From the NCBI RefSeq assembly GCF_029873635.1, contig NC_080418.1:8566562-8630561 (forward strand): 64,000 nucleotides of DNA, given 5' to 3'. A program made the position numbers and the translations under genes. Below are positions 1,157 to 39,350 of the stretch, in pieces. A model generated the notes under the pieces. That model was not told the DNA's origin. It saw only the letters and a list, made by a program, of their open reading frames with translations, and ran no database searches. The first letter of the stretch is position 1, and every line of letters starts with the position of its first letter. Origin of the DNA: Malania oleifera (taxonomy: Eukaryota; Streptophyta; Magnoliopsida; Santalales; Ximeniaceae).

Positions 1157-1208
1157 TATAAGAACCTGAACCATGATGCATGGGTTAATTATGTAAAAAA
1201 GTGATAAA

Positions 1209-1420
1209 ATCGTAAATTGAACAGGGTTCGTCGACGAGGCCAAGGTTCGTCGACGAAGGTTGAAGGCTCCTCATCAACGAAATTCAGAGTCTCGTCAACG
1301 AGGGAATGCTGAGAGGTCTGAAGGACTTGAAATATCCGGCTCGTCGACGAGGCCACTGACTCGTCAATGAAGCCAATGAAGGACTCGTAGATGAGGACAC
1401 CAATTCGTCGACGAATCACT
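1209..1420 (+). promoter_or_regulatory. U3 array of eight TCGTCGACGA-type palindromes
   Basis: Eight units matching [C/T]TCGTCGACGA[A/G], exact or with CpG changes, lie 15-40 bases apart and end about 20 bases before the TATA box. Changed units read TCATCAACGA, TCGTCAACGA, TCGTCAATGA or TCGTAGATGA. The position upstream of TATA fits an LTR enhancer (inference). Confidence 0.8.
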
Positions 1421-1433
1421 TAGGTCAAAGGTC

Positions 1434-1441
1434 CTATAAAT
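1434..1441 (+). promoter_or_regulatory. TATA box of solo LTR 1157-3342
   Basis: CTATAAAT follows the palindrome array and precedes the CT-rich leader, the arrangement expected of a plant LTR promoter. Confidence 0.65.
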
Positions 1442-2325
1442 GATATTTTTGGTTGCTTTGGGGTTAAGTTTCCCTAAACTCTCTCTCTCTCTCTCTAGAA
1501 TTCAAAGCTCTCTCTCTCTCTCTCTCCTTGATTTCTTCACCGTTTGTCTCTTGATTCGTAAATCCAATGTTATTGTGAGGATCAGAGAAGGATTCTCTAC
1601 GTTTCTAGTGGATCGAAATCTCGTTTCGAGCAATTTCGGGTTTCGAGCTAAAATCAAATTAAGGCTCGGTTTTCATTTCTGATTCAGTATATGTGTAGTA
1701 GTATGGATTGTAAGCCTGTATTGTACTGTGGTTTGTAGGTTTTGGAGTCTTGGTTCATAGTTTTTGGGATCGTTGAGTTCGTAATTGGAATTCGGGTTAA
1801 GGTAAGGGGATTCTGTTTATATCAGTTTATTTTCAAAATCGGGATCGATAAGCCTGTAGGCTACGGTTGTATGTATGTTTTAGCAACTTATTTGGGGAAA
1901 TCTATCGAGTAAAAATACCAAATTTTCAAGTTACAGTTTTCGGGAAAATTGGGGATTTCAGGTATCATCTCTACTTGGTTTCGAAATCTGTTAGTTACGT
2001 TGAAACTGTATTATTGAGGTGACCGTAATCCATATTTGCATAAACTGTATACTTGAATTTGTAAACGATATGATTTTTCGTAAACCAAATAAGTGTGGTA
2101 TGTATGGGTGTAGGTATTTATTCCAGGTATTTGTAAAACAACTATGTGGGCGGCTAATTACCGTACGCTGAAATGTATAGGAATGTGAGTTCCAAAATGA
2201 TTCCAAGGATTTGGAAAATAGTCATGTATCGGTTAACCACCATGGGCGAGAGTGGCCGGCTCTATATCCGGGGTGTGAAATATCACCAGTATGTTCCGGC
2301 TGGTCACCGAAGGGTGTGTTTTACA

Positions 2326-2735
2326 CCATATGTAGCAATGTAATCACTGTGGGCCTCGGTTGTCGCAGCGTAGTTGCGTGTGTAGCAATGTAATCACTGT
2401 GAGACGAGGTGACCTTGTGTAGTTGCGTATGGAGAAATGTAATCACTATTGGGCCTCAGTTATCGCATCGTAATTGCGTGTGTAGCTATGTAATCATTGT
2501 GAGACGAGGTGACCTTGTGTAGTTGCGTATGTCGCAATGTAATCACTATGGGCCTAGGTCGTCACAGCGTAGTTGCGTGTGTAGCAATGTAATCACTGTG
2601 AGACGAGGTGACCTTGTGTAGTTGCGTATGGAGCAATGTAATCACTATTGGGCCTCGGTGGTCGCAACGTAGTTGCGTGTGTAGCAATGTAATCGCTGTG
2701 AGACAAGGTGACCATGTGTAGTTGCAAACTAGTGT
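2326..2735 (+). repeat. Dimeric minisatellite, about 100-bp higher-order unit, four copies
   Basis: The word ATGTAATC recurs eight times with spacings of 50, 49, 51, 49, 50, 49 and 51. Two monomer types alternate: one continues GTGAGACGAGGTGACCTTG, the other continues GGGCCTCGGTTGTCGCAGCG. Each pair therefore makes a dimer of about 100 bp. Confidence 0.85.
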
Positions 2736-3347
2736 GATGACACTAACCGTATGTTTTCGATATCATATGTATTGGAATGGTTTTTTTTGTGAAAATACTG
2801 GAACTGTATGTATATTTATGGAAATGTTTCGAACTGTATCGTATTTTATAGTGTTATGCAGTATATAAAATAACACTGGTATGCCACACACTAATATAAC
2901 CTGCTTTCTTCCTTACTGAGAGGTGTCTCACCCCAAATGTACATATAATGTTTTCAAGTCCTTCAAGTAGCCGTAAGAAGCATCCGAGCGTCTAAAAGCA
3001 AGGGGTGTCGTAGCTACTGCTAGTACCTATTTAGGTACGAGTTTTGGTATCCAGACAGTTGGGATGGTTTTTGTAGACACCTAGGGTATGTTCTGTATTA
3101 TGGGAATGTATATCCTAGCTTGTATAGACTCTGGTATGATACTGTTAATGTATAAAAGACCGTATTCCGCTGCATATTTTGGATGAGTATGGATGATTAT
3201 GTGTATATATGTGGGCATCCGTTCACCCCACGGGGTTGGACCCTCTTTTGTACCGTGTCACATATGTTTTAAATTGATACAGAGACTAGTTAAATTACTC
3301 AAATTCACACCTGGGACCCACTTGCGGGTTCGGGCCGTGACAAAAGC

Positions 3348-4656: not shown

Positions 4657-5828
4657 ACCCCACACCATACCACAAAATTCACAGACACAAAGGAATGGGT
4701 TGCACCCGAATCGAACAAAACAGTAGCTTTATTTAAAAGTAATAATAAGGTACATGTCACCACGTTACTTGCAAGCTCAGTATCTGCTGGAGTAAGAGAG
4801 TATACTCTGGCTGGAGCTGTATTCATCTGAATGCATCCCCGAGGTATCTGATTGTTCCCTCGGTTCCCACTGAATGCAGGCACATCTCGCTTCGGTGCAC
4901 GACAATCATGAGACATGTGGCCCGATTGGCCACAGTTGTAGTAGTTACCCCCAAATGACCGGCACTCACCCTCGTGCCACCTGAGGCATCTGGTACAACG
5001 ACCACTAGTCTGGCTCCCCTGAGAATCCTGACGCTTGGTATTCTAACAGTAACCCGAGCCCTTGCTCCTATTCTTCCACGATCCCTGATGAGATCCTATC
5101 TGAGAACTAGAAGGTATCGTCCTCTTCCTCGATTCCTAATCCACCTCATCCTCTCAGATACCGATCTCAATCACCATGGCCTTATCCACCAACACCGAGA
5201 ATTCACAGATCTGAAGCATACCCACCAGTCTGCGGATATCCTTCCTCAAACCCTTCTCGAACCTCTAAATCTTCTCATACTCGCTCGAGGTCAAACATGG
5301 TGCAAAGCAGGACAGCTCTATGTACCGAGCCGCATACCCCTGCACCGTCATACTCCCCTAAGTCAGAGCAGAAAACTCATCTGCCTTCGCATCACGTACA
5401 AAAGCCGGGAAGTATCTGTCAAAGAATACCTCCTTGAAACAGCTCCACATCATCTCATCAGGACCACCTCTCTGCTTCTTCAGCAGACTCACTGCAGTTC
5501 ACCATCGACCCGCCTCCTCAGATAGCTGGAAGGTGGCATAAAGGACTCGCTACCTATCTGTGTAGTGCAGAACCTCCAAGATCATCTCAGTATTCTCCAC
5601 CCAATCTTATGCTATCATCAGGTCAAGTCCTTTAGAGAATGTCAGAGGATGCATGCATGTGAACCTCTCAATGGGGCACCCCACAGCAGTAGGAGAGCAC
5701 TCGCGTCTCCTCACATTCCACCTGATCTCCCGTAATACCTATCTCGTCAAACCTCGAGACACAAAAGGAGACTCAACACTCGTAGTCTCCTCGGAGCCAC
5801 TCCCCAAGTCATTATCCTTGGGATCCAT
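4657..5828 (-). pseudogene. Gag of Ty3 element 1, with CCHC knuckle and start of protease
   Basis: The likely start is the minus-strand ATG at 5828 (MDPKDND). The frame then reads a Ty3 retrotransposon gag domain (YATFQLSEEAGRW, FFDRYFPAFVRDAKADEF, GYAARYIELSCFAP), a basic linker and a CCHC knuckle (CGQSGHMSHDC) near 4930. It continues without a clear break into the protease leader (RVYSLTPADTELASNVVTC) and the DSGATHSF active site. Numerous in-frame stops are present. Several fall where family members have Gln or Trp, as expected from C-to-T decay on either strand. Confidence 0.85.
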
Positions 5829-6152: not shown

Positions 6153-7831
6153 TGCCATGCCCCGAACCCAAAAATGGGACCGAGGGTGAGAATGTAACCT
6201 AATATGTCCCTGTATCTGATAAAACATGAGCAAAACATGGCTCTAACAAAACGTACGAACGGGTGCCCAAACACATCTCAAAATGGCAACCCACCAAAGA
6301 TACAGTCCTAGCACTTACCCAAGCGCTAAACGCAATACACCGGCCACTACGCTCCCTACACCAGAACACTAGTTTCGGTTACTCGAAGGACCTGTAAAAA
6401 TGTACGTACAGCAGGGGTGAGACACCTCTCAATAAGGAAGAACACAAGTTATATTGGTGTGTGGCATTTGAGTGTTATCATGATGCAACATACACGCAGT
6501 TAAATACAATCCAGTACTAGTTTCCACAATGCAGACACGCACACATACACATACACATGATCAAAAATCCTAGTATCGCCACACCCTCCAGCCCAAAGTC
6601 GACCCGCGACATATGGCGTTGGCTCATAACCAACCCGCAAACACGGCGCCACCGGCACATGGCTAGTCCCCGACTCCCATGGCATCGTACCGGCGCTAAA
6701 CAGGTGGATCCACACCCTTAGGCCTGATCTGCCGGAATAGGCTCACGCCCTCAGATATAGAGCCGGACACTCTTGCCTACGTGGCAGGTGATAAACACAC
6801 GCCTTCGGATATAGGATATAAAGCCGGACACTCTCAATACCTGGAATAATTTCGGAACTGCGTTGCTACTAGCATTTCAACATATCACACACACATGCAT
6901 GCTCATATAACCAAACAAACCACACCCATTTGGTAATATAAATCATGGTTTTCCAAATAAATACAGTTTAAACAAGTCAAGGCACGGTCATCCCAACATC
7001 ACAGTATAAATCAACGTATACCCTCAGTTTTCAACAAAACCAAGGATGCAGCTTGTCGACCCCTTTTTCCAAAACTGTAATAATGAAAAACCCATAGTTT
7101 TCCCCATTAGATCCCCCCATATAAGTAACCAAAACACGCATAGGACCGTAAACCACAGTTCCACCGAGTCCGATTTCAAAAATAACCAATATAAACACAG
7201 TTTCCCTTACCTTTTCCCTGAATAGCGAATCCCGAACTCCAAGGTCCCTAAACAGTAAACCAAGATCCAAAACCTACAAATCACAGTACAGAATATACTC
7301 ACAAAATTGTTACCTACAAAACTACCGGATCAGAATTGAAAACCGAGTCTTACCTCGATTTTTCTCCAAAACTCGAAAATCTTCGAAACGAGATTTCGAT
7401 CCATAGAAATTGTAGAGAATCCTTCCAAGATCCTCATGATAACTTCAGATTTCTAATTCCAGCAACGATCGGCGAAGAAATCTAGAGAGAGAGAGGGTAG
7501 GGAGAGTTCTAGGGAGAGAGAGATAGGATTGAAGTTTCTTAACGAAGAAGTAATGAAATTTCCTTTTTATAGCCCTTTGACCGGCCCACTTCGTCAACTA
7601 AATGGTGCCTTCGTCGACGAATCTTCCACTGACTTCGTCGACGAATCGGTGGCCTCGTCAATGAATTTGAGATCACCGATTTTTCTAAGACTCCTCAACT
7701 TCTTCTCGTCGACGAGTCTCTGAATTTCGTCAACAAGAAGAACAAAGGCTTCATCGACGAAATCTGTCAAATTCCCTATTTGCCCCTCTCTTATTTATTT
7801 AAACCCAGTTATCACGGATTGGGTTCTTACA
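6153..7831 (-). repeat. 5' LTR of Ty3 element 1, 1679 bp
   Basis: On the plus strand it runs from TGCCATGCCCCGAACCC to GGGTTCTTACA, ends that match solo LTR 1157-3342 in reverse orientation. Read on the minus strand it shows a palindrome array (7770-7575), a TATA box (7564-7571), a GA/CT tract (7480-7530), a repeated CGGACACTCT-containing block (6720-6840) and the conserved GGTGTCTCACCCC box (6414-6437). The right flank gives no testable TSD because the partner LTR is outside the window. Confidence 0.88.
7564..7571 (-). promoter_or_regulatory. TATA box and adjacent palindrome array of the element 1 LTR
   Basis: TATAAAAA on the minus strand is followed upstream, at 7587-7770, by seven TCGTCGACGA-type units. 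Three are exact and the others carry mainly CpG transitions such as TCGTCAATGA or TCATCGACGA. Confidence 0.7.
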
Positions 7832-8137
7832 GTCTAGAATATACTAGAGTATAAGACATGGATAAGACCTCGAGATTTGTTTTGTATACCTGGAGACAGG
7901 ATCTATTGACAAACTTCTGTGTTTTCTGGATCATTCGAAGGGTTCAGAAAATCATAGCAATCTATTGATGGGGTTGTTTATAAGTGGAAGGGTAGAATTT
8001 GAGTTGAATGATGATGTTAAATTAATGGGGTACGTCGATATTAAGGATGTGGATTTAGGGGGCTGAGTCTATAGTATGGTAGTGTTAGCTGATACTTAGG
8101 CTATTACCTTTTGATGGATTTTCATTTGCATTTCAGG
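7832..8137 (+). other. Leader remnant of Ty3 element 2
   Basis: This stretch separates the LTR of element 1 from the gag ATG of element 2. Its length, about 306 bases, is close to the leader of element 1. No primer site or own 5' LTR is seen, so element 1 probably inserted into or replaced the 5' end of element 2. Confidence 0.5.
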
Positions 8138-9006
8138 ATGGAATCCAGGGACATTACTGCCAACTTAGGAGGCAGTAGTACTAAGAGTGTCAGCCCTGAG
8201 GCTGGTAATGACTCTACGAGTATATTACGTAATTTTGCATAGCAGCTTATGGCTTAGGTGGTGCGAACGAATAGGGGGTAGGACCGTCTCATCTCTAAGA
8301 TGGGATGCTCCATTGATCAGTTCACCAAGTTGAAGCTTTCGGTGTTCGTAGGATGTGCAGATCCAGTTCGGGCTGAGAATTGGATCCAGGAGATCGAGAA
8401 GATCCTAAATGTTTTAAACTGCACGGAGAAACAGAAGGTAACCTTTGCAACATTCAAGTTGTTAGGGGAGGCAGAGAGATGGTGGATGTCGGTGAAGAAG
8501 ATGGAGGAGCACCGACCGATACCAGTAGCTATGGCATTGGCCCATTTCAGAGAGCTATTCTTTAAACGGTATTTTTTTGCCACAGTCAAAAATGGGAAGA
8601 TGGAGGAATTTACGAACCTGGCGTAGGAGTCGCTGTCAATGCAGTAGTACGCTGCCAAATTTCAAGAGTTATCCCGATTCGCTCCATTTATGATACCAGA
8701 TGAAGCAAGGAAGGCTTAAAAGTTTCAGAGGGGTTTGAGGAAGGAGATCTGTAGACAGACAGCGATCTTGCAGTTGCAAGACTTAGCTACCCTGGTGGAT
8801 AAAGCCACTGTGGCAGAGGAGAGTCTATTAGAGGACGTAGAGGTTCAGGTTCCGAAAAAGAGGCCAGCGCCTTCGAGTTCTTCGTTTGAGGCAAGGTAGG
8901 GTAACTGGAAGAAGTGCAGTGGTGGTACATCTCAGAATACCTCGTCTTATCACAATTGCTCTCTTTGTGGTAAGAGACACCCTGGGCAGTGTCGGATAAC
9001 TACGGG
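8138..9006 (+). pseudogene. Gag of Ty3 element 2
   Basis: The ATG at 8138 begins MESRDITANLGG. The frame reads a Ty3 gag domain: FVGCADPVRAENWIQEIEKIL near 8350, LLGEAERWWMSVK near 8460, FKRYFFATVKNGKMEEF near 8560, then AAKFQELSRFAP near 8650 and FQRGLRKEI near 8730. A first cysteine-rich motif (CSLCGKRHPGQC) is near 8960. In-frame TAG codons occur at about 8238, 8253, 8279, 8624 and 8645, two of them at positions normally Gln. The frame is cut at 9006 by a solo LTR and resumes at 11536. It is not functional. Confidence 0.88.
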
Positions 9007-12660: not shown

Positions 12661-13788
12661 TGTAGTGACCCGAAGAATAATAACATTTTAAGTATTAAAA
12701 AGGGAGAGAAAATAGAAACAGAAACAAAAGGAGACCATAATATTAAATAATCATAAATTTATAAAATTGCCCAGCTTCGTTGATGAACACAGGGTCTTGT
12801 CAACGAAGGTCTTCAGAATTTCGTCGACGAACACAGGGCTTCATTGATGAGAAAATACCGAGAGACCGTTCAGGCTGCTCTGAATTTCATCGACGAACAC
12901 AAGGCCTCGTCGACAAAATTTGTGAAGGGCTCGTCGATGAGGTGACGTGTCTCATCGACGAACCTGGCCCTATAAAAGGAGGAAAACCGGGATTTTTATC
13001 AGTTCTCTCACTACTCTCTCTCTCTCTCCTACGACTCTCTCTCCCTTCTCTCTTCACTTTTGGCCCCACCAGTCGCTGGATCGACGATCCGAAGCTACCA
13101 CGACCCTTCTGGCGGAGTTCTCTACACATCTATCAAAGCGGATCGTCAGGAAATCAAAATTGGAAATCATCTCAAATTCAGGGTAAGGCTTTTTAGTCTC
13201 CTTTTGGCCTTGTGGTAGTTATAGGAAATGATACATGCAGAAAAATATTGATGTTTAGTTCTGAAAAATATTGGTTTCAGGGTGTTTTGTAGGAGGCCCT
13301 GCGAGTATCGGGCTAGAGTACAGTAAGGGTTTTTCAGAGATAAGGTAAGGGATATATGCTAGGTTAGGAAATTTAAAAATATTATGCAGTATATTTATTT
13401 ATGAAAATTATGTACTCAAGTATGGTGTGGCTTGAGAATATGTATGTAGTATGGGAGTATGTTTTATGAATTGTAGTTTCATGATTTTATGTATTTTAGT
13501 GCTATGATTATGTGAATTACAGTACCATGATTTTACGGATTTTTAACACCATGATTATACAAATTACGAATACGGTATTATGATTATGTAGTTCCAGTAT
13601 TATGATTTATAGAGTTTAAAGCATGCCATGTTTTCTATTACCATAACATTCAAGTATGCAGACAGAGCATTTACAAAATATATAGACAGTCATACAAAGA
13701 TAGCATTGAGATGCCATAGTTATAGTATGTACAGAACAGAAAGATAGCGTTATGATAATTTTGAAAACATGATGAAAACAGTGAAAGA

Positions 13789-13829
<41 letters not shown>

Positions 13830-14721
13830 TATGTATATAATATCAGACCCTGTTGGACTATACATTTTATAGAACACGGTACTGTAGCTACATGGAGTAT
13901 ACAGTTTACAGAGTGCAACCACCTATTCAGATAATAGGTTGTAGGTCGATCGTATAGTGCCCTTGATGTGGACAGGCTCCCCATCAGATATGGGTAGAGG
14001 TGGGCAGATCGACCGAGGTAGTATAGTGATTTATCTGGTCGGCCAGCCAGTGTAGATCCCGCCTATGGACCGCACAACCCTATCATAAGGGGTTAAATCA
14101 TGACATACAAATATCCACAGGGGAACATTTACAGTTATTATTATGTATATTATGATTTACAGAGACCAGGGAGTTACTTATGTATGTTAAAAGTATTTTG
14201 AATAGTAACTTAAATACAGATGTGTTAAATGACATGAAAATGGTAATGAATATTATGATTTGTATTGTATTTATAGATCCAGATATACATGATTATATGG
14301 AAACATATTTTCACGATATGATGACTCATTTGCCACACACTAGTAATAGCATATATCGTCTTACTGAGCGTTGACTCATCCTAGTGTTGAAACCTTTTTC
14401 AGGTGATCCAGGTAGGCGAGCAGATCAGGCTCGCTGGTAGAGGGGTGTCTGTAGTGCCCTGACAACAAAGTGAGTACAGTGGAGGGTTTTTGTATTTGCC
14501 CTAGCTAGCTGAGGGCAATTTTGGGGAGTTAGTAACACATGTATATATTCTTTTGGGAAACATGATAGCACTCTGGTATTGTACAGTATGGTATATCATT
14601 ATGTATGGAAATGTTTATTTGTATTATGTTTCTCACTGCTTAGGATAATGTTATGGTATCAGACTAAGATAATTATTATAGTGGGAAAAAAAATCATGTT
14701 AATTAAGCAGGTTGTTGCACA
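12661..14721 (+). mobile_element. LTR of the GTCGAC-array family in RT of element 2, no clean TSD
   Basis: It starts TGTAGTGACCCGAAGAATAA and ends AAGCAGGTTGTTGCACA, closely similar to the ends of the solo LTR at 24869-26988. It carries eight palindrome units, a TATA box (12971-12978), CT tracts, a degenerate ATGATTATG-containing repeat (13430-13610), a (TA)n tract (13787-13826), the GGCCAGCCA...GCACAACCC block (14038-14110) and a diverged TACTGAGCGTTGACTCATCC box (14362). Flanking bases ATTAT and TTCGC do not match, and the host RT does not resume on the right. This junction is therefore rearranged. Confidence 0.8.
12776..12962 (+). promoter_or_regulatory. U3 palindrome array and TATA box of LTR 12661
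   Basis: Eight TCGTCGACGA-type units occur here, most with CpG transitions: TCGTTGATGA, TTGTCAACGA, TCATCGACGA, TCGTCGACAA and others. TATAAAAG follows at 12971-12978. Confidence 0.78.
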
Positions 14722-15089: not shown

Positions 15090-15645
15090 GTGTACCTTCG
15101 GGCGACCGAAGGTCGACCGACACCGGACTTTTTTGGTGTCTTCAAAATTGGACCCCAAGTGGCCTTAGGACACACACATATGCACATATATTTATTAGGC
15201 ACTTAAAATTGATTGAGTTGGGTCAATTCGGGACCGAAATGCACACTTGGTGCACTTTCGGTCGACCGAGCCAAACAGTTCAAATTGGCCCGGTCGACCG
15301 AAACCGGTCCGGGTCAACTATTTGACCCGGTCCCGGTCGACGGACCCCTTACAGGTCATTTGACTTCGGTCGACCGAACCACCTGGGAGTCAACTATTTG
15401 ACCCCCCGATCGACCGACCACTTTTGTACTCCAACAACTCGGTCGACCGAAGCGCCTCGGGAGAATTCCCAACAACTCGGTCGACCGAGCCATGCAGTTC
15501 AAAAAGGCCTCGGTCGACCGAAACTCGGAGATTTCAAAAATCGCCTTTACCCGGTCGACCGACCCCTTAGTTCAAAATGCCCTCGGTCGACCGAGCTACT
15601 TGAGTCCCGGTCGACCGAGCTACTTTTGGTCGACCGGACCTCTCG
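15090..15645 (+). promoter_or_regulatory. U3 array of about 14 CGGTCGACCGA palindromes
   Basis: About fourteen copies of CGGTCGACCGA, most exact, occur at spacings of roughly 20-45 bases with one larger gap (15120-15258). Between them lie recurring fillers such as AGTTCAAAA and GTCAACTATTTGACC. The array ends about 120 bases before TATATATA at 15767. The 62- and 101-residue ORFs here are by-products of the repeat. Confidence 0.85.
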
Positions 15646-18224
15646 GGTTGCCCTGATTTTTTTACCGCGATTAAATTTTTTAAACAGGGTTAAATTTTCT
15701 TAAGTGTCATTAATATTTTCTGAAAATTCCTAATAAGTCCCCAACGGTCAAAATTCTTGGTATGTCTATATATACTCCTTCATTTGGTGGATTAAGCACG
15801 GATTAGCAAATAAATTAAGAAAAATTTTCTCTCAAGCCAAATACTCATATTTGCCTCCTACTACTTACATTACTTTGAAAACCTACTCAAGCTTACACTC
15901 TTCATCTATCCAAATCATTTGTAAGTGTATTGAGTCTTTTATTTTTGGTTAGCTCTTCATATTGCTGTGTATTTGAATCGATTTTTGAGAGCATAACCTA
16001 AGTTTTCTTAGGAGACTTTGCCAATAAGCCTGCCCTAAGAAAGACTCTTTGTGACATCCCAAGTATTGCACTCTAGTTGCAATATCTTAGGAAGTTCATT
16101 TTTGTTTGGAGATTGCAAAAATACTTTCAAACATATTTGAATATCTTGTGGTGTTCATATTGATATATTTGGGAAAGGATATTCGTGTGTGTGTGATATA
16201 TATAAATCTTTGTGGTATTGTTTGTACAAGTTTTATAAATATGTATCATTTACCAAAAACAAAGATTATCTACTTTGCAATACAAGCACATACGCATTCT
16301 ATTGATTGATAATATTGAGGCTTGCTTGGTATTCTGTGTGAACACTCTTGACTGAATATTTTGAAGTGCACAGATTATTATTGACACTCTCACGTACGTG
16401 TTACACTGATAGAAAACATAGTTGAGAGATTGACATTTTAGACCACACAGAGCTTACATTTTAAATCACTTGTGGTGTTTGTGGTTATGCGCATTTGTGG
16501 TACATATCTGCTTTACTTGAAAGCACAATTGTATTGTACCTTTGATTGTATATCTGAGAGATTCCAGGCGTGGCCTGAGGGGGCGGTAATCCAGCCCAGT
16601 AAGGATTGGTGTAAAGGTTGAGGTCAGCCCCGCTAATTGACCTGGTTAAGGTTGAGGTCAGCCCTGTGGTAATTTGACCTGGTTTGTATAGGTGACGCTC
16701 CACCCGTTTAAGTGAGCAATGTAACACCCCGACCCCGAGGGGCCTGGGATATTAACTTTTTACTACTGATTTACAGCGGAAGCAAAATAAACTCAATTTT
16801 ATTCAAACCAGAGCGCTAATTATTCATGTTACAATCATTTATTTCAAAAGAAGAAAATTACACAAACGTAAATATCTGAAATCATACTATATTTCTAATT
16901 AATCTTTATTTTTTTCTAATCCCCACCCGCATGCTTGCTAAGCCTGCTTGCTAAGCCTGATTTCCGACATGTCCTTCAGAGTTATCTGAAATAAAATATG
17001 ATTGGGGTGAGACGACGCTCAGTAAGTAAATAAGATTATTATTAGTGTGTGGTCAAAATGAGCTTTTAAAGAATTTCGTAAAATAATATTTAATACTATA
17101 ATTTCAAGACTGCTTTTAGAATAAACATAACTTTAAAGATTTCTGCATAAAACTTTTGTCATCAATTTCAACAGTAAATTTTTACAATCATATACTATAA
17201 CTGCTAAATTAAACTTTTAACTTTAAAACTGTAAAAATATTTAATGATAAACATATACTTTTCCTTATACGTGTTCCTTAGATCGTCATTTAAGTACCAA
17301 AATGATTCTTTTCACGTAAACTTACACTTTTCCTTCAAATCATCAGTAACTTTGTACACGTAATTAAATGTGTATAAACATATATTATAAAAACCCACCC
17401 TTAGGCCTGTTTGCCGTAAGTCATGTTTACCCCCATAACTGGGTTGTGCGGTCCGAAGACTTGACTTAGCTGGCTGGCCGACCAAACTAAATCAACGTAC
17501 GTAAACTTTAAGTGAGATTTTCCTTATTAAGTCCTGGACTTAAACCAGGTGTGCACTTAGGAGAAATCCACTAACATAAATAACCACTCTGTAAACAGTG
17601 TGGGTGCACTCTGATCCGTATAAACTTTAAGCTGCGGTATCGAGCATCTGTAACTTTGAACTTTCGTTGCCATAAGGGGTTTGAAAATCATCTTATTATC
17701 ATTTATGCAATTTAAAATAATATCGTGAAAATCTCATCTTTACTCATATTTTCATAAAAATGCAACGTAAAAATAAACTCATGCCACACAATTTTTGTGT
17801 TAAAAATATATATAATTTTATTTTTGAATAGAAAGAAATGCTGAAAATTTACCCGAGGGGATTGGAACATTTCTTAACCCAAAAATAGATGCAAGTATAT
17901 TAAAGATAGAACTGGTATAATTAAATATGCGTAAAAATAAACTCATAGAAATTTTGTGGAACTAAGTAACATAATTAAAATTTACGTACAAAATAAACTC
18001 GGGTATGAATTTAAAATAAAAAGAAACTAACATAATCAAAATTTACTTACCTTCTTCTTTTACCGTGTGCTACGAACACAATAGTTATCTTTAAGAAATG
18101 AGATCGGAAAAAGTGGGTGATTGAGAATTTATTCAAAAATTCTCTCTCCACCACAAATTCTTTCACTCACTAATCCTTCTCTTCCTTGGAAAATTGTTGT
18201 GAAAAATGAAGGTTGAGAGCTCCC

Positions 18225-23955: not shown

Positions 23956-24992
23956 TTTTGAATTTTATAACGGACATATTTTTGGAAAGTCAATTGCTTG
24001 GGAATCAAACTTGTTCAAAACTTGAACACTACTCCAAGTAAACTTGGGGAACAAGTTAGATACTTTTCTAAATCTATAAATACCCCTCAAGATCAATTAA
24101 TTCAATTACCAAGAAACAATTACAGCATTCAATCTCTCTCAATTGTTCTCAAACTCTCAAAGGCTCTCTCACTCTCAACTTGCACGAAAACTACTAAGGC
24201 TTTACTAACTCTCAATCTCTAGTATTGTGCTATAATTCTTTCATCTATTGAAAGAATCCTTCGATGATATACTCTTGGGGCTTCAATCTGAATTTCATAT
24301 TTGATTTTCTTTGAAGTATATAGCTATGAATTTATACTAATTAGCTCTTTTGAGAGCATCCCTTGTATACCTTGTTTCAAATCTTGTCTTGTAGATTCAT
24401 TGACGATTCGAGTGCTTGAATCGTTGGACCGAACGAGGGCATATCGTTTGGAGAGGCGAGCTCTAACCTAATTAAGTAGTGGTTGTAACGATGTTGTTCC
24501 ACCCAAAAAAGGAACTAATATAGTGGAATCCTTTGGTTGTTTGCCAAAGGTGAGGACGTAGGCCAGGGATAAGTCAAACCTTGTAAAAACTTGGTGTTCT
24601 TCTCTCTACTTTACTCTTTTCTTTCTGCACGATATTTTTATTTGTTGAATGTATATTACTGATTGTAGGGCTTAAGTAAAAAATTTAGAGAAGACTCTTA
24701 ATTTTAGAAAATACGTTTTTAATTAACCTTTCGCGGAAACCCGCAAGGGAGTACGTTGGTTAATTTGTGGAAATCTTGGTTAAGAGAGTGCATTACAAAT
24801 CAAAATCAAAACAAGACTTGCATATAAGCACAGGGCTGCTACCAAAAGCTAAAAGCATCAAGTTCTTATGTAACAACCCGAAGAATAATGGTAATTAAAT
24901 AATCAAAATAAAGGAGAATGGAAACAGGAACAAAAAGAGGCAATCGACGACGTTGCATTTTGGATGGGATAATCCCGAGGAATTTTTCAGCT

Positions 24993-25178
24993 CCTCGTCG
25001 ACGAACACAGAGGACTCGTCGACGAGGGTATAAGAGGTGCTCGTCGACGAAGATAGGATTCGTCGATGAGAAGATACTGAGAGAGGTTTTATGGAAACCT
25101 GAAATTCATCGACGAGGGTTGAAGTTCGTCGACGGACTTCCTTCAGGACTCGTCGACGAGGTGACGTGACTCATCGAT
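24993..25178 (+). promoter_or_regulatory. U3 array of eight TCGTCGACGA palindromes with TATA box
   Basis: Eight units, four of them exact TCGTCGACGA, end about ten bases before TATAAATA at 25190-25197. The rest differ at CpG positions (TCGTCGATGA, TCATCGACGA, TCATCGATGA), apart from one TCGTCGACGG. Confidence 0.82.
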
Positions 25179-25802
25179 GAATCTTGCAGTATAAATAGGG
25201 TTAAATGAGAATTTTCAGTCATTTTCCTGCGCCAAATCTCTCTCTCTCTCTCTCCTCATACGGTTTCTCCTCCTTCTCTCTAAGATTCTGGGCCAGATTT
25301 TTATTGGTTCGACGATCTGAAGCCACCACGACGCTCCTGGAAAAGTTCTCTACAAATCTGCTGGAGCGGATCATCGGTGGGGCTGAGTTGGAAACCATCC
25401 CAAATCCAGGGTAAGGCTTTCTACTCAGTATTTGGTTATTTGGCAGTTGTAGAAAGTGTTATAAGTGTAAAAATACTAAACTTTAGTTCTGAGGAAATGC
25501 TGTCTCCAGGGTGTTGAGTAGGGAACCCTGCGGGTGCGGGACAGATTTTCTTAGAGGCTTTTCAAGAATCAGGTAAGGGAATAAACTAAACTAGTTCTTT
25601 TAAGAAGATGTATGTATATGTAGCATTTGATTTCAGGAAAGTAAATATGTTTATATATATGATTTATATTTGAAAAAACACTATTGAAAATGATGGTATG
25701 TTGAATATATGAAAAACATGTTCAGTGTGGCATGGGTAGAAATTGTTATGAAATACTATTTTCTGGAAATGTAATTATGATACGGATTTTTATAATGGAA
25801 AA

Positions 25803-25990
25803 TCGGCGTACGGGCTGAGATTTTTATATATGTTTTCTGGCGTACAGGCTGAGCTATGTGTATGATTTTCCAGTATACGGGCTGTGCCATGGATATGATT
25901 TGCTAACGTACGAGCTGTGCTATGATATGATTTACCGGTGTACGGGCCGAACTATGATAAAATGTGAAATACCGGCGTACGGGCCGATGA
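25803..25990 (+). repeat. Minisatellite of about 33 bp, six copies
   Basis: The core CGTACGGGCTGAG recurs at about 25805, 25841, 25874, 25907, 25938 and 25972, separated by TATGATATGATTTxCCGG-like sequence. The reverse-oriented LTR at 32135-34315 carries about eight related copies at 33125-33372. Confidence 0.85.
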
Positions 25991-27203
25991 TTGTCATGAT
26001 ATACATACATATGCTAAATGATATGATTGATTTGATAATTAATGATATGAAATATTCATGTATCACAGTTTCAGTATATGTTATATGATATCAGAACCTG
26101 GTTGGCTTGGTCTAGGCTAACACTTGCACAGTACCGTTGCTATGTCCATTGTTATCATGATCATGATATTTGTGTTAACACTGCTGTACGGAGTGGTGTG
26201 AGATTGGATGGTCGATGTAGTTTTTAAGAAGTGTGTGTGCGCCCCTAGTGTACGGACCAGGTCTAGCAGACCCATCAGAATTACAAACTGTACTTTTAAC
26301 TTGACAGTGGTCAGCCAACCATTGTCAAGTCCCGCTTTTGGGCCACACAACCCAATCATGTGGGGGTAATACATGACAACAGTCAGCTAACCTACCAGGA
26401 ATGTTTTTGTATTATATTTTATAAGATGAAATATGATTATGAAAATGCAGTATGTTCTGTCATGTTATGATGATATATATGTTTTCCCACATATGACATA
26501 ACAGTTGTTAAATATGTTTCTATACGATATATGTATAACACGGAATACTCATGTTGCCACACACTAGTATTAGTTTATTTCCCTTACTAAGAGGTGTCTC
26601 ACCCCAAAATTTTATAAACTTTTCAGGAGCCCTTGATAGGGGAGCGGGAAAAGTCCCGCTGATCTAGTGTCATTGATCTGCCCTCTTTGAAAGGTAAGTT
26701 TTAGTAGGGACAGTTGGATTTTGTGGCAAATGTCCCTAAATCTTGTTTTTGGGATGTGTATACTGAAATACAGTGGATATAGTGACTCTAATATTTATGA
26801 TATTTTGATGGATGTTTTCGTATTTATGATAATGTGATTGTATGTTTCCTACTGCTTAGGCTTCCATTATGTGTTCTGATGTATCCCTGGTATCCACGGG
26901 TCTAGGTGGATTATGATTAGCTGAGATTTGTGATATTGAATTTATTATATTATGAAAAAAAAATGTAGAAATTAAGCAAGTCGTCACATCTTGATTGATT
27001 GATTGATTGATTTTAATATTGTGGTTGATTGGATTGTTTAATTTTCAGTACTTTGTGGTGTGTTTTGGTTGTGATTATAAATTGATTGATTTACTTACAT
27101 TGTTCTTGTTGCACTAAAACAAGTAAAGAAGTTAAAAAGAACTTAATTTTTTAATTAACCCAATTCACCCCCCCCCCCTCTTGGCAACGCTATTCTAATT
27201 TCA

Positions 27204-32134: not shown

Positions 32135-34315
32135 TGTAACAACCTGCATATTTTCCACACTTTTTTTTTTTATATCAATGTCATACATTCCAACTCAATA
32201 GGTCACAATCCACCTGGACTCATGGGTACCAGGAATATATCAGAACATACAGCAGAAGCTCTAGCAGCAGAAAACATACAATAATGTACATCTCAATATA
32301 ATATATATTACAAAATACCAGAGTTGCTACAATCGCTGTACTTCTACATATACATCCCAAAAATGAAATTTAGGGACAAATCCCACAAAACCTAACTATC
32401 CCTACCAAAACTTACCCTTCAAAAAGGGCAACAACTACTCTAGATCAGCGGGGCTTTTCTCGCTCTCTTATCAAGGGCTCTTAAAAAGTTAATAAGATTT
32501 AGGGGTGAGACACCTCTCAGTAAGGGAAATAAACTAGTACCAGTGTGTGGCAACATAAGTATTACGTGTTCTTCATATATCATACATAGCATATTCAGTA
32601 CTGTTTTATCAAATCTGGGAAAACATATATATAATTCAACATGGCAGAACATACTGCATTTTCATAACATATCTCATCTTATATCATAATAATAATAACA
32701 TAAAACAATCCTGGTAGGTTAGCTAGTTGTTGTCATGTATTACTCCCACATGACTGGGTTGTGTAGTCTGAAAGCGGGACCTGACAATGGTTGGCTGACC
32801 ACTACCAAGTCAAACAATAGTCTATAAGTCCGATGGGTCTACCCAGACTGGTCCGTACACCAGGGGCGATAACAGCACACTTCTTGAAAATAACCACATC
32901 GACCATCCAATCTCACACTACTCCGTACAGTGGCATTAACACAGATATCATGATCACGAGGACCATGGACACATAGCAACGGTACCGTGCAAGTGCTAGC
33001 CTAGACCAAGCCAACCAGGTTCTAATATCATATAGCATATACTAAAACTGTGATACATAGATATTTTATATCATTTATTCTCACATCAATCATATCATTT
33101 TGCATATATACGTGTATCATGAAAATCATCAGCCCATACGCTGGTATTACACATTTTATCATAGCTCAGCCCGTACGCTGGCAAATCACAGTCACATAGC
33201 AGGACCTGTACGCCGGAAAACGTAGCATAGCGCGTACGCTGGCAAATCACATCACATAGCACAGCGCGTACGCTGGCAAACATAGCACAGCTCGTACGTT
33301 GGCAAATCACATCACATAGCACGGCCCGTACGCCGGCAAACATATCATAAAAATCTCAGCCCATACGCCGGTTTTTCCATCCTAAAAAATTCATATCATC
33401 CACAATCCTAGAAAACAGTATTTCACAATATTTTTACTCATGCCACACAAATGGATTTTCACATATTCAACATACAATCATTTTCACAGTATTTTGCAAA
33501 TATAAATGATATATATAAATATATTTATTTTTCCTGAAACTAGATGCTATATATACATATACATGCATTTTCTCAAAAGAAAATTGGCTTAATTTATCCC
33601 CTTACCTGATTCCTGAAATGCCCCTAAGAAAATCTTCCCCACACCCGCAAGGTTCCCAACTCAACACCGTGAAAATGGAAATTCCTAATATTAAAGTTCA
33701 GCATTTTCATGCGCACAACATTTCTTATAACTAGCGCAAGACCAAATATGGCTTAAAAAGCCTTACCTCAACTCTGGGATGATTTCCAACTAGCTTTCTT
33801 CCACGATCCGCTCCAGCAGATTTGGAGAGAACTCCGCTGAGAGCGTTGTGGTGACTTCGGATTGTCGATCCGGTGAAGATCTGGCCAGAAATCAATGAAA
33901 GAAAAAGAGAAAATCGAAGGGGAGAGAGAGAGAAAAGAGATAGCTTCCTTAATAAGATAAAAATTCAGATTTTCATATTTATAAGTAGGGGATTTCATCG
34001 ATGAGCCCGTCCTTCGTCGACGAGTCCTTCACACATTTCATCAACAAAATCCACTTCTCGTCGACAAAATTCAGTCGGCTCCAAAAACCCCTCTTGGTAT
34101 TTTCTCATCGACGAAGCCCTATGTTTGTCGACGAAATCTTTAAAGCCTTTGTCGACAAATCCCATGTATTCATCGACGAAGCCTTGCTGGCCCCCTTTCC
34201 TTTAATCCTTCCAAAGTTCAATGTCGTTGACGAAGTCGACGGCCTCCTTCTGTTTCCGATTTCCATATCTATTTTCTTTTAATACTTTAACTACCATTTT
34301 ATTCGGGTCGTTACA
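32135..34315 (-). mobile_element. Solo LTR of the GTCGAC-array family (TSD GGTCA) in copia element 3
   Basis: GGTCA at 32130-32134 is repeated exactly at 34316-34320, and the copia frame rejoins as SGHPGARPA. The plus strand runs TGTAACAACCTGC to CGGGTCGTTACA. Read on the minus strand, it has the palindrome array (34250-33990), TATAAATA (33976-33983), GA-rich leader (33895-33935), the ATCCGCTCCAGCAGATTTG motif (33787, plus strand), the minisatellite (33372-33125), the conserved block with ACTGGGTTGTG (32750) and the TCTCACCCC box (32501-32526). It is the mirror image of 24869-26988 in layout. Confidence 0.92.
33976..34250 (-). promoter_or_regulatory. U3 palindrome array and TATA box of LTR 32135
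   Basis: Nine units of the TCGTCGACGA type are visible on either strand. One is exact and most others show CpG transitions, e.g. TCATCGATGA, TCGTCGACAA, TTGTCGACGA. The TATA box TATAAATA lies at 33976-33983 on the minus strand. Confidence 0.78.
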
Positions 34316-39103: not shown

Positions 39104-39350
39104 CGCAAATTATCGGGTATCAAACAATCTTCAACTGAACAGGTTCTCGACAATTCAGCAACCAATAGAATCGTCAATGATTTGCTGAAAACGTCGACAA
39201 TTTTTAGTAATCCGTCGACGATTTGATGAAACCGTTAATAATTTTTTCCTAAAAAACTTTATGTCTGAAATTGTCAAAGTAGCTGTCGAATGGTATAGAA
39301 ACTATCGACGGTTAGCTAGAAAACTAAATAGTGTCCTTTATAAGACATGC
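39104..39350 (+). repeat. Degenerate CGTCGACGATTT-like array before a TATA-like site
   Basis: Units such as TCGTCAATGATT, CGTCGACAATTT, CGTCGACGATTTG and CTATCGACGGTT recur over about 210 bases, followed by CTTTATAAGAC at 39338. This is the layout of the U3 arrays of the LTRs, but no LTR ends could be found. Confidence 0.45.

Follow-up and report, generated by a model that had tools for sequence, protein, structure and literature searches.

The region examined here is a 64,000-nucleotide stretch of the Malania oleifera genome (NC_080418.1, positions 8,566,562 to 8,630,561; hereafter the window), in which five LTRs each carry an array of the 10-bp palindrome TCGTCGACGA upstream of a TATA box. 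We refer to these LTRs by the approximate distance from the last unit of the array to the TATA box, as TATA +9, +11 or +20 types. The array at the center of this study lies in the fourth LTR, a plus-strand TATA +9 element at 24869-26988, which is probably a solo LTR given its TG...CA ends flanked by TCTTA and TCTTG. Unit matching places eight in-phase units at 24995-25180 (plus strand), with steps of 21, 25, 19, 46, 20, 24 and 21 bp; a central box and spacer (GAAGATACTGAGAGAG...; 25070-25105, plus strand) separates two four-unit blocks, and the TATA box TATAAATA stands 9 bp past the last unit (25190-25197, plus strand).

The boundaries of the other four LTRs are taken from the original prediction. 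The first (1157-3342, plus strand; TATA +20), which opens with TA, has eight units at 1228-1414 with steps of 19, 24, 21, 49, 20, 24 and 20 bp and a TATA box 20 bp past the last of these (1435-1442), both on the plus strand; an internal repeat at 2329-2725 of the window, whose copies share 89-92% identity and are offset by about 100 and 200 bp, also lies in this LTR. The second (6153-7831, minus strand; TATA +20) has seven units with at most two mismatches at 7591-7760, whose steps in minus-strand order are 24, 21, 51, 20, 24 and 20 bp, followed at 19 bp by its TATA box (7564-7571), again on the minus strand. The third (12661-14721, plus strand; TATA +9) combines seven units with at most two mismatches and an eighth with three at 12777-12961 with a TATA box 9 bp further on (12971-12978), both on the plus strand. 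In the fifth (32135-34315, minus strand; TATA +11), eight units with at most two mismatches and one with three occupy 33995-34233, and the TATA box is found 11 bp past the last unit (33976-33983), likewise on the minus strand. Elsewhere in the window there is a GIL1/IRKI-type gene at 45-47 kb, and three imperfect units, 20-21 bp apart, are seen at 39171-39221 in another repeat that recurs at a sampled locus, L020. The former cluster, which contains no perfect unit and for which no TATA box was found, was excluded from the array counts, as was that of L020, which did not include the required unit with one mismatch or fewer.

The original prediction of seven to nine units per LTR, with each array ending close to its TATA box, is borne out: the five arrays hold 8, 7, 7, 9 and 8 units with at most two mismatches, and end 20, 19, 9, 9 and 11 bp from the TATA box. 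The nine units of the fourth array include one at 24944 and exclude two overlapping out-of-phase matches; lone two-mismatch matches at 7469 and 33797, inside LTRs and outside the arrays, were likewise excluded. With up to one mismatch, TCGTCGACGA has 28 matches in the window against 0.52 expected, a count reached by none of 100 shuffles, and 27 of these fall inside the five LTRs. A search of the 1.494-Gb genome recovered 132,361 perfect sites, as opposed to 1,383 for the reversed control, and two control palindromes of similar design have few sites (TCGACGTCGA, 433; ACGTCGACGT, 129). The window shuffles and these counts rule out a chance origin of the unit clusters.

The association with the TATA box, which had been claimed from the window only, holds across the genome: TCGTCGACGA occurs 8-38 bp upstream of TATAAATA at 18,150 places (9,719 + 8,431; control 3 + 3) and downstream of it at just 86 (50 + 36; control 2 + 2). 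To this we add a sample of 20 spaced 10-kb loci from contigs 1-5 (199,073 readable bases), in which all 21 perfect units and 40 of the 42 one-mismatch units have another unit, matching in at least 8 of 10 letters, within 60 bp. The clusters are therefore not scattered without relation to LTR U3 regions, the case that had been named as refuting the prediction; they recur within U3, ahead of the TATA box of the LTR, as the sites of an LTR U3 enhancer array do. The sample holds 13 arrays, from which we estimate about 100,000 genome-wide, a rough figure drawn from few loci. One apparent pair of clusters at L011, which looked like a 100% repeat, proved to be an overlap of cut windows.

The original prediction contained no spacing rule, yet the arrays display a clear grammar: two four-unit blocks, with steps of about 20, 24 and 20 bp, are arranged around a central box resembling GAAAATACCGAGAG, the blocks standing 45-51 bp apart. 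Among 128 neighboring pairs (units with at least 8 of 10 letters, at most 60 bp apart, from the window, the sample and three further loci) the step is 19-21 bp in 67, 22 bp in 1, 24-25 bp in 33 and 38-57 bp in 27. The genome has 32,162 pairs of perfect units at distances of 16-46 bp (control 0); of the first 100 listed, which lie close to the start of contig 1, 45 fall at 19-21 bp, 21 at 24-26 bp and 34 at 43-46 bp, the last class mixing steps across a decayed unit with between-block steps and being bounded by the search range, which ends at 46. One array with all eight units intact is present among the matches listed for these pairs. When 18 arrays were scored against the block pattern, their better-fitting block reached 30-39 of 40 and their second one 21-38, the maximum among 216 dinucleotide shuffles being 25; the second block exceeds this value in 16 of the 18 arrays, the exceptions being those of L009b (22) and L018 (21). 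As a step of 20-21 bp is close to two helical turns, the spacing suggests couples of dimers lying on one face of the DNA.

To understand which features of the array are maintained we examined 18 Ty3-type arrays (5 from the window, 3 from a genome-wide word search and 10 from the sample), using the 136 of their 144 slots in which at least 6 of 10 letters match; the other 8 slots have fewer. Not belonging to the Ty3 types, the arrays L009:57-225, L021 and L023 did not enter this set. Across the 136 units the letters outside CpG have changed in only 6 of 544 places, as against 152 of 816 for CpG letters (Fisher p ~1e-28); choosing units by their likeness to the motif inflates the constancy of the letters, but not the CpG contrast. 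The CpG changes are C>T or G>A in 141 of the 152 cases, indicating that copies of the array have been methylated. The C of ACGA and its mirror G are the most often changed (68 of 272, vs 36 of 272 for TCGT and 37 of 272 for TCGA), and mutation spectra of methylated CpG likewise favor ACG. Thus, the arrays probably inserted with intact units, which decayed afterwards in the methylated state. The pattern is a sign of methylation in these copies and not of binding that needs or avoids it, so it does not bear out the methylation-dependent site suggested in the original prediction.

The filler between the units behaves differently. Comparing the TATA +9 group (with the fifth LTR of the window, of +11 type) to the TATA +20 group, the six filler slots of equal length agree at 0.07-0.47, while the CpG letters agree at 0.64-0.79 and the other unit letters at 0.89-1.00. 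Inside the groups filler agreement is 0.30-0.93. The description of the filler as unrelated is accordingly apt between LTR types, where it is mostly near random, but not within them, where it is partly alike; its lengths are conserved. The filler between units 7 and 8 keeps GGTGACGTG in 6 of the 8 TATA +9/+11 arrays that have it (e.g. window 12941-12978), and GGTCAAAGG is kept before the TATA box in 7 of 9 TATA +20 arrays; we take these to be possible bZIP and WRKY sites, respectively.

The Ty3-type LTRs are linked to one another at about 65-90% identity in BLAST comparisons, and TATA[AT]A was found for 15 of the 18 arrays, those of L001, L013 and L018 having TATAAG in its place. Their affinity is anchored by L017, a full-length Ty3/gypsy element whose two LTRs (166-1977 and 7013-8849) both contain the array. 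Profile searches of its interior recovered, in broken pieces, Retrotrans_gag (below the cut-off), RVP_2, RVT_1, RT_RNaseH and the integrase-end SH3_Tf2-1 domain, the integrase core itself not being matched; the RNase H piece matches Ty3 structures. An LTR pair around genes in Ty3 order was found for L017 only; for the other Ty3-type arrays the classification relies on the similarity of the LTRs and the distance to the TATA box. A piece of RVP_2 also follows the first array of L027.

The arrays are, however, not confined to one group of related LTRs, as the original prediction had it, since they are also present in Ty1/copia elements. At L009 the array (57-225) belongs to a 3' LTR, upstream of which are encoded, in order, RVT_2, SH3_retrovirus and a weakly matched rve (E 0.013), and RVT_2 is likewise found upstream of the array-bearing LTR at L029 and L031. 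All three thus show an RVT_2-type reverse transcriptase followed by a polypurine tract and an array LTR, while L023 and L030 are called copia-type by LTR likeness only. A structure search with the copia reverse transcriptase piece gave no match among solved structures, and no Pfam match was obtained in the four internal pieces of L021 that were scanned. Genome-wide, a copia-type polypurine tract followed after 75-105 bp by TCGTCGACGA is seen at 383 places (178 + 205; control 0), some LTRs being counted twice via two units; among the matches listed at least two look Ty3-like and many others have one common copia-type LTR start. Both blocks of the grammar are present in L029 and L031 (steps of 21, 25, 22 and 47, then 20-21, 25 and 20-21 bp), and in L009 and L030 the grammar fits in one block only. 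The predicted fixed place upstream of the TATA box holds for the Ty3-type LTRs (9, 11 or 19-21 bp), but not for the copia-type L023, L029 and L031, in which TATATATG lies 90-91 bp past the last unit. By this placement the array is positioned like an enhancer rather than as part of a core promoter.

Does the central box, too, unite the two superfamilies? The comparison we trust uses all 18 Ty3-type arrays and only three copia-type arrays, placed by their units alone. Over the 20 letters after the first block, the TATA +9 group agrees with the copia-type arrays at 11.22 of 20 (null maximum 9.74) and the TATA +20 group at 8.56 of 20 (null maximum 8.30), values reached by 0 of 2,000 shuffles in both cases without shifts. 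Allowing shifts of up to 3, these figures become 0 of 2,000 for the TATA +9 group and 7 of 2,000 for the TATA +20 group; the agreement of the latter group with the copia-type arrays is weak, and with L029 and L031 alone it is reached by 1 of 2,000 shuffles without shifts and 9 of 2,000 with. An earlier version of the test, using 15 of the 18 Ty3-type arrays and four partly hand-picked copia-type boxes (L023 and L030 having been found by box letters), stayed below the null maxima without shifts (6.97 vs 7.62 and 6.25 vs 6.89, of 16) and surpassed them once shifts were allowed (10.78 vs 8.56 and 8.54 vs 7.93). Taken with the grammar, the agreement of the box between Ty3-type and copia-type arrays makes common descent of the cassette look the likelier, if unproven, alternative to two origins.

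Other palindromes form arrays in the same genome. A second CpG palindrome, CGGTCGACCG, makes a 12-unit run at 15259-15636 of the window, most steps of which are close to 33 or 40 bp; two further units stand at 15099 and 15110, and TATATATA is found 130 bp downstream of the run. This word has 37,462 sites genome-wide (control 256). Three units of CCGTCGACGG (3,279 sites; control 323) with at most two mismatches occur in a copia-like LTR at L012:2930-3000; at the same locus (4894-5043), copies of the palindrome CGTTACGTAACG are seen in about 150 bp. At L024, which is similar to L021 in its LTR-like flanks, the slot that holds the TCGTCGACGA array in L021 is instead filled at 8130-8434 by units resembling the quasi-palindromes TTCAGTCGTCTGAA and CAGTCGTCTG, many at 21-bp steps; CAGTCGTCTG has 15,584 sites genome-wide vs 832 for its reversed control. 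From this one pair of loci it looks as if motif arrays have been swapped in one slot, and the related palindrome arrays suggest a wider class. It is conceivable, though we advance it tentatively, that TCGTCGACGA, CGGTCGACCG, CCGTCGACGG and CAGTCGTCTG are interchangeable cassettes that pass between the LTRs of both superfamilies and are swapped in one slot, each having its own reader from a diversified DNA-binding family.

Stacks of host-factor sites upstream of the LTR TATA box have precedents in the heat-shock elements of the ONSEN LTR and in retroviral U3 enhancer repeats. To our knowledge these comprise few sites in one family each, with no eight-unit grammar across two superfamilies as is observed here. 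The BII boxes of the tobacco Tnt1 LTR, which bind defense-induced factors, are similarly located in a plant LTR, but belong to one superfamily, and the accessible part of that report describes neither a palindrome array nor sharing with Ty3 elements (PMC3316501). A different parallel is offered by the VANDAL DNA transposons of Arabidopsis, in which, going by the available portions of the reports, the VANC target motif YAGTATTAY forms rapidly expanding tandem repeats (PMC5735166, PMC10398659); they share with the present arrays the dense repetition of short motifs in the noncoding DNA of mobile elements and the variation of motifs among related elements, but are DNA transposons with their own VANC gene, whereas here we see a palindrome with a stiff grammar in LTR U3, and no extra gene in L017. 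The original prediction's statement that no description of the array was known agrees with the open papers containing TCGTCGACGA, none of which, judged by titles and the starts of abstracts, concerns LTRs. Nor was a description of the array found in the mostly open-access literature on LTR arrays, repeats and enhancers, U3 palindromes, copia and gypsy motifs and CGTCGACG DAP-seq.

We favor, at a probability of roughly 0.6, the reading that the array is a mobile U3 enhancer cassette bound cooperatively by a putative host protein dimer and common to both superfamilies. In this model, one dimer of a host protein that binds DNA sequence-specifically would sit on each 10-bp palindrome, and units would act in couples about two helical turns apart, with two couples per block and the two blocks flanking the central box. 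The bound units together would load a cooperative complex, which would switch on the TATA promoter downstream. The cassette would have moved between elements via recombination or template switching rather than having arisen twice. No known plant factor could be named for TCGTCGACGA.

Against this reading we weighed four others. The two blocks look like a duplicated four-unit block, and the spacing may have been inherited rather than selected, as it would be in a plain minisatellite of an old LTR passed on without function; but such a repeat would be conserved as a whole, and here the filler differs between LTR groups while the non-CpG letters of the units stay constant. On that disparity we reject this explanation, and the presence of the array in two superfamilies makes it the more improbable. 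The CpG letters themselves suggest another role. Plant SUVH1/3 complexes are CG-methyl readers with activating or anti-silencing action, and three CpG in each of eight units, up to 24 per ~190 bp, could, once methylated, recruit these or MBD7 and so keep a methylated LTR transcribable. The decay pattern shows that the arrays have indeed been methylated, and the MBD7 complex promotes the expression of methylated transgenes in Arabidopsis (PMC5462541), although in the portion of that paper at hand a statement on methylation density was looked for and not found. However, CpG density alone does not need the T and A outside CpG to be nearly invariant, and control palindromes with three CpG are rare; we regard such docking as unlikely.

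Similarly doubtful is that the array is the target of a transposon-encoded, sequence-specific anti-silencing protein, as VANC is on VANDAL motif arrays. The different motif array of L024, in the slot where its relative L021 has the TCGTCGACGA array, recalls the dense short motifs of VANDAL noncoding DNA, which differ among related elements in the available text (PMC5735166). But in L017, the one full-length Ty3 element examined, the ~5.0 kb between the LTRs contains gag-pol pieces and leaves little room for an extra gene, the presence of the array in both copia and Ty3 elements speaks for a host factor, and VANC arrays, by the part of the report available, expand and contract (PMC10398659), unlike the stiff TCGTCGACGA grammar. 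A role in RNA, finally, would place the palindromes at the 3' end of the genomic RNA, acting in dimer formation, packaging or poly(A) control. U3 is also transcribed there and self-complementary words can pair, but one word fills all slots with no slot-specific partners, and the arrays of Ty3-type LTRs are tied in place to the TATA box, so that we consider this very improbable.

If the array is indeed a mobile enhancer cassette, several implications follow. Ty1/copia and Ty3/gypsy are considered separate lineages with their own promoters, and a cassette sharing one eight-site grammar across the two would imply an exchange of control regions between these lineages. With ~100,000 arrays, as estimated from a small sample, a considerable fraction of this genome's transposons may be driven by a single host factor, and the fixed word and spacing should make the binder directly findable. 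The CpG-limited decay of the units could additionally be read as a copy-by-copy history of silencing. Were the more tentative idea of interchangeable cassettes true, these arrays would parallel, among LTR elements, the arms race of VANDAL and VANC, and retrotransposons would share promoters as exchangeable parts.
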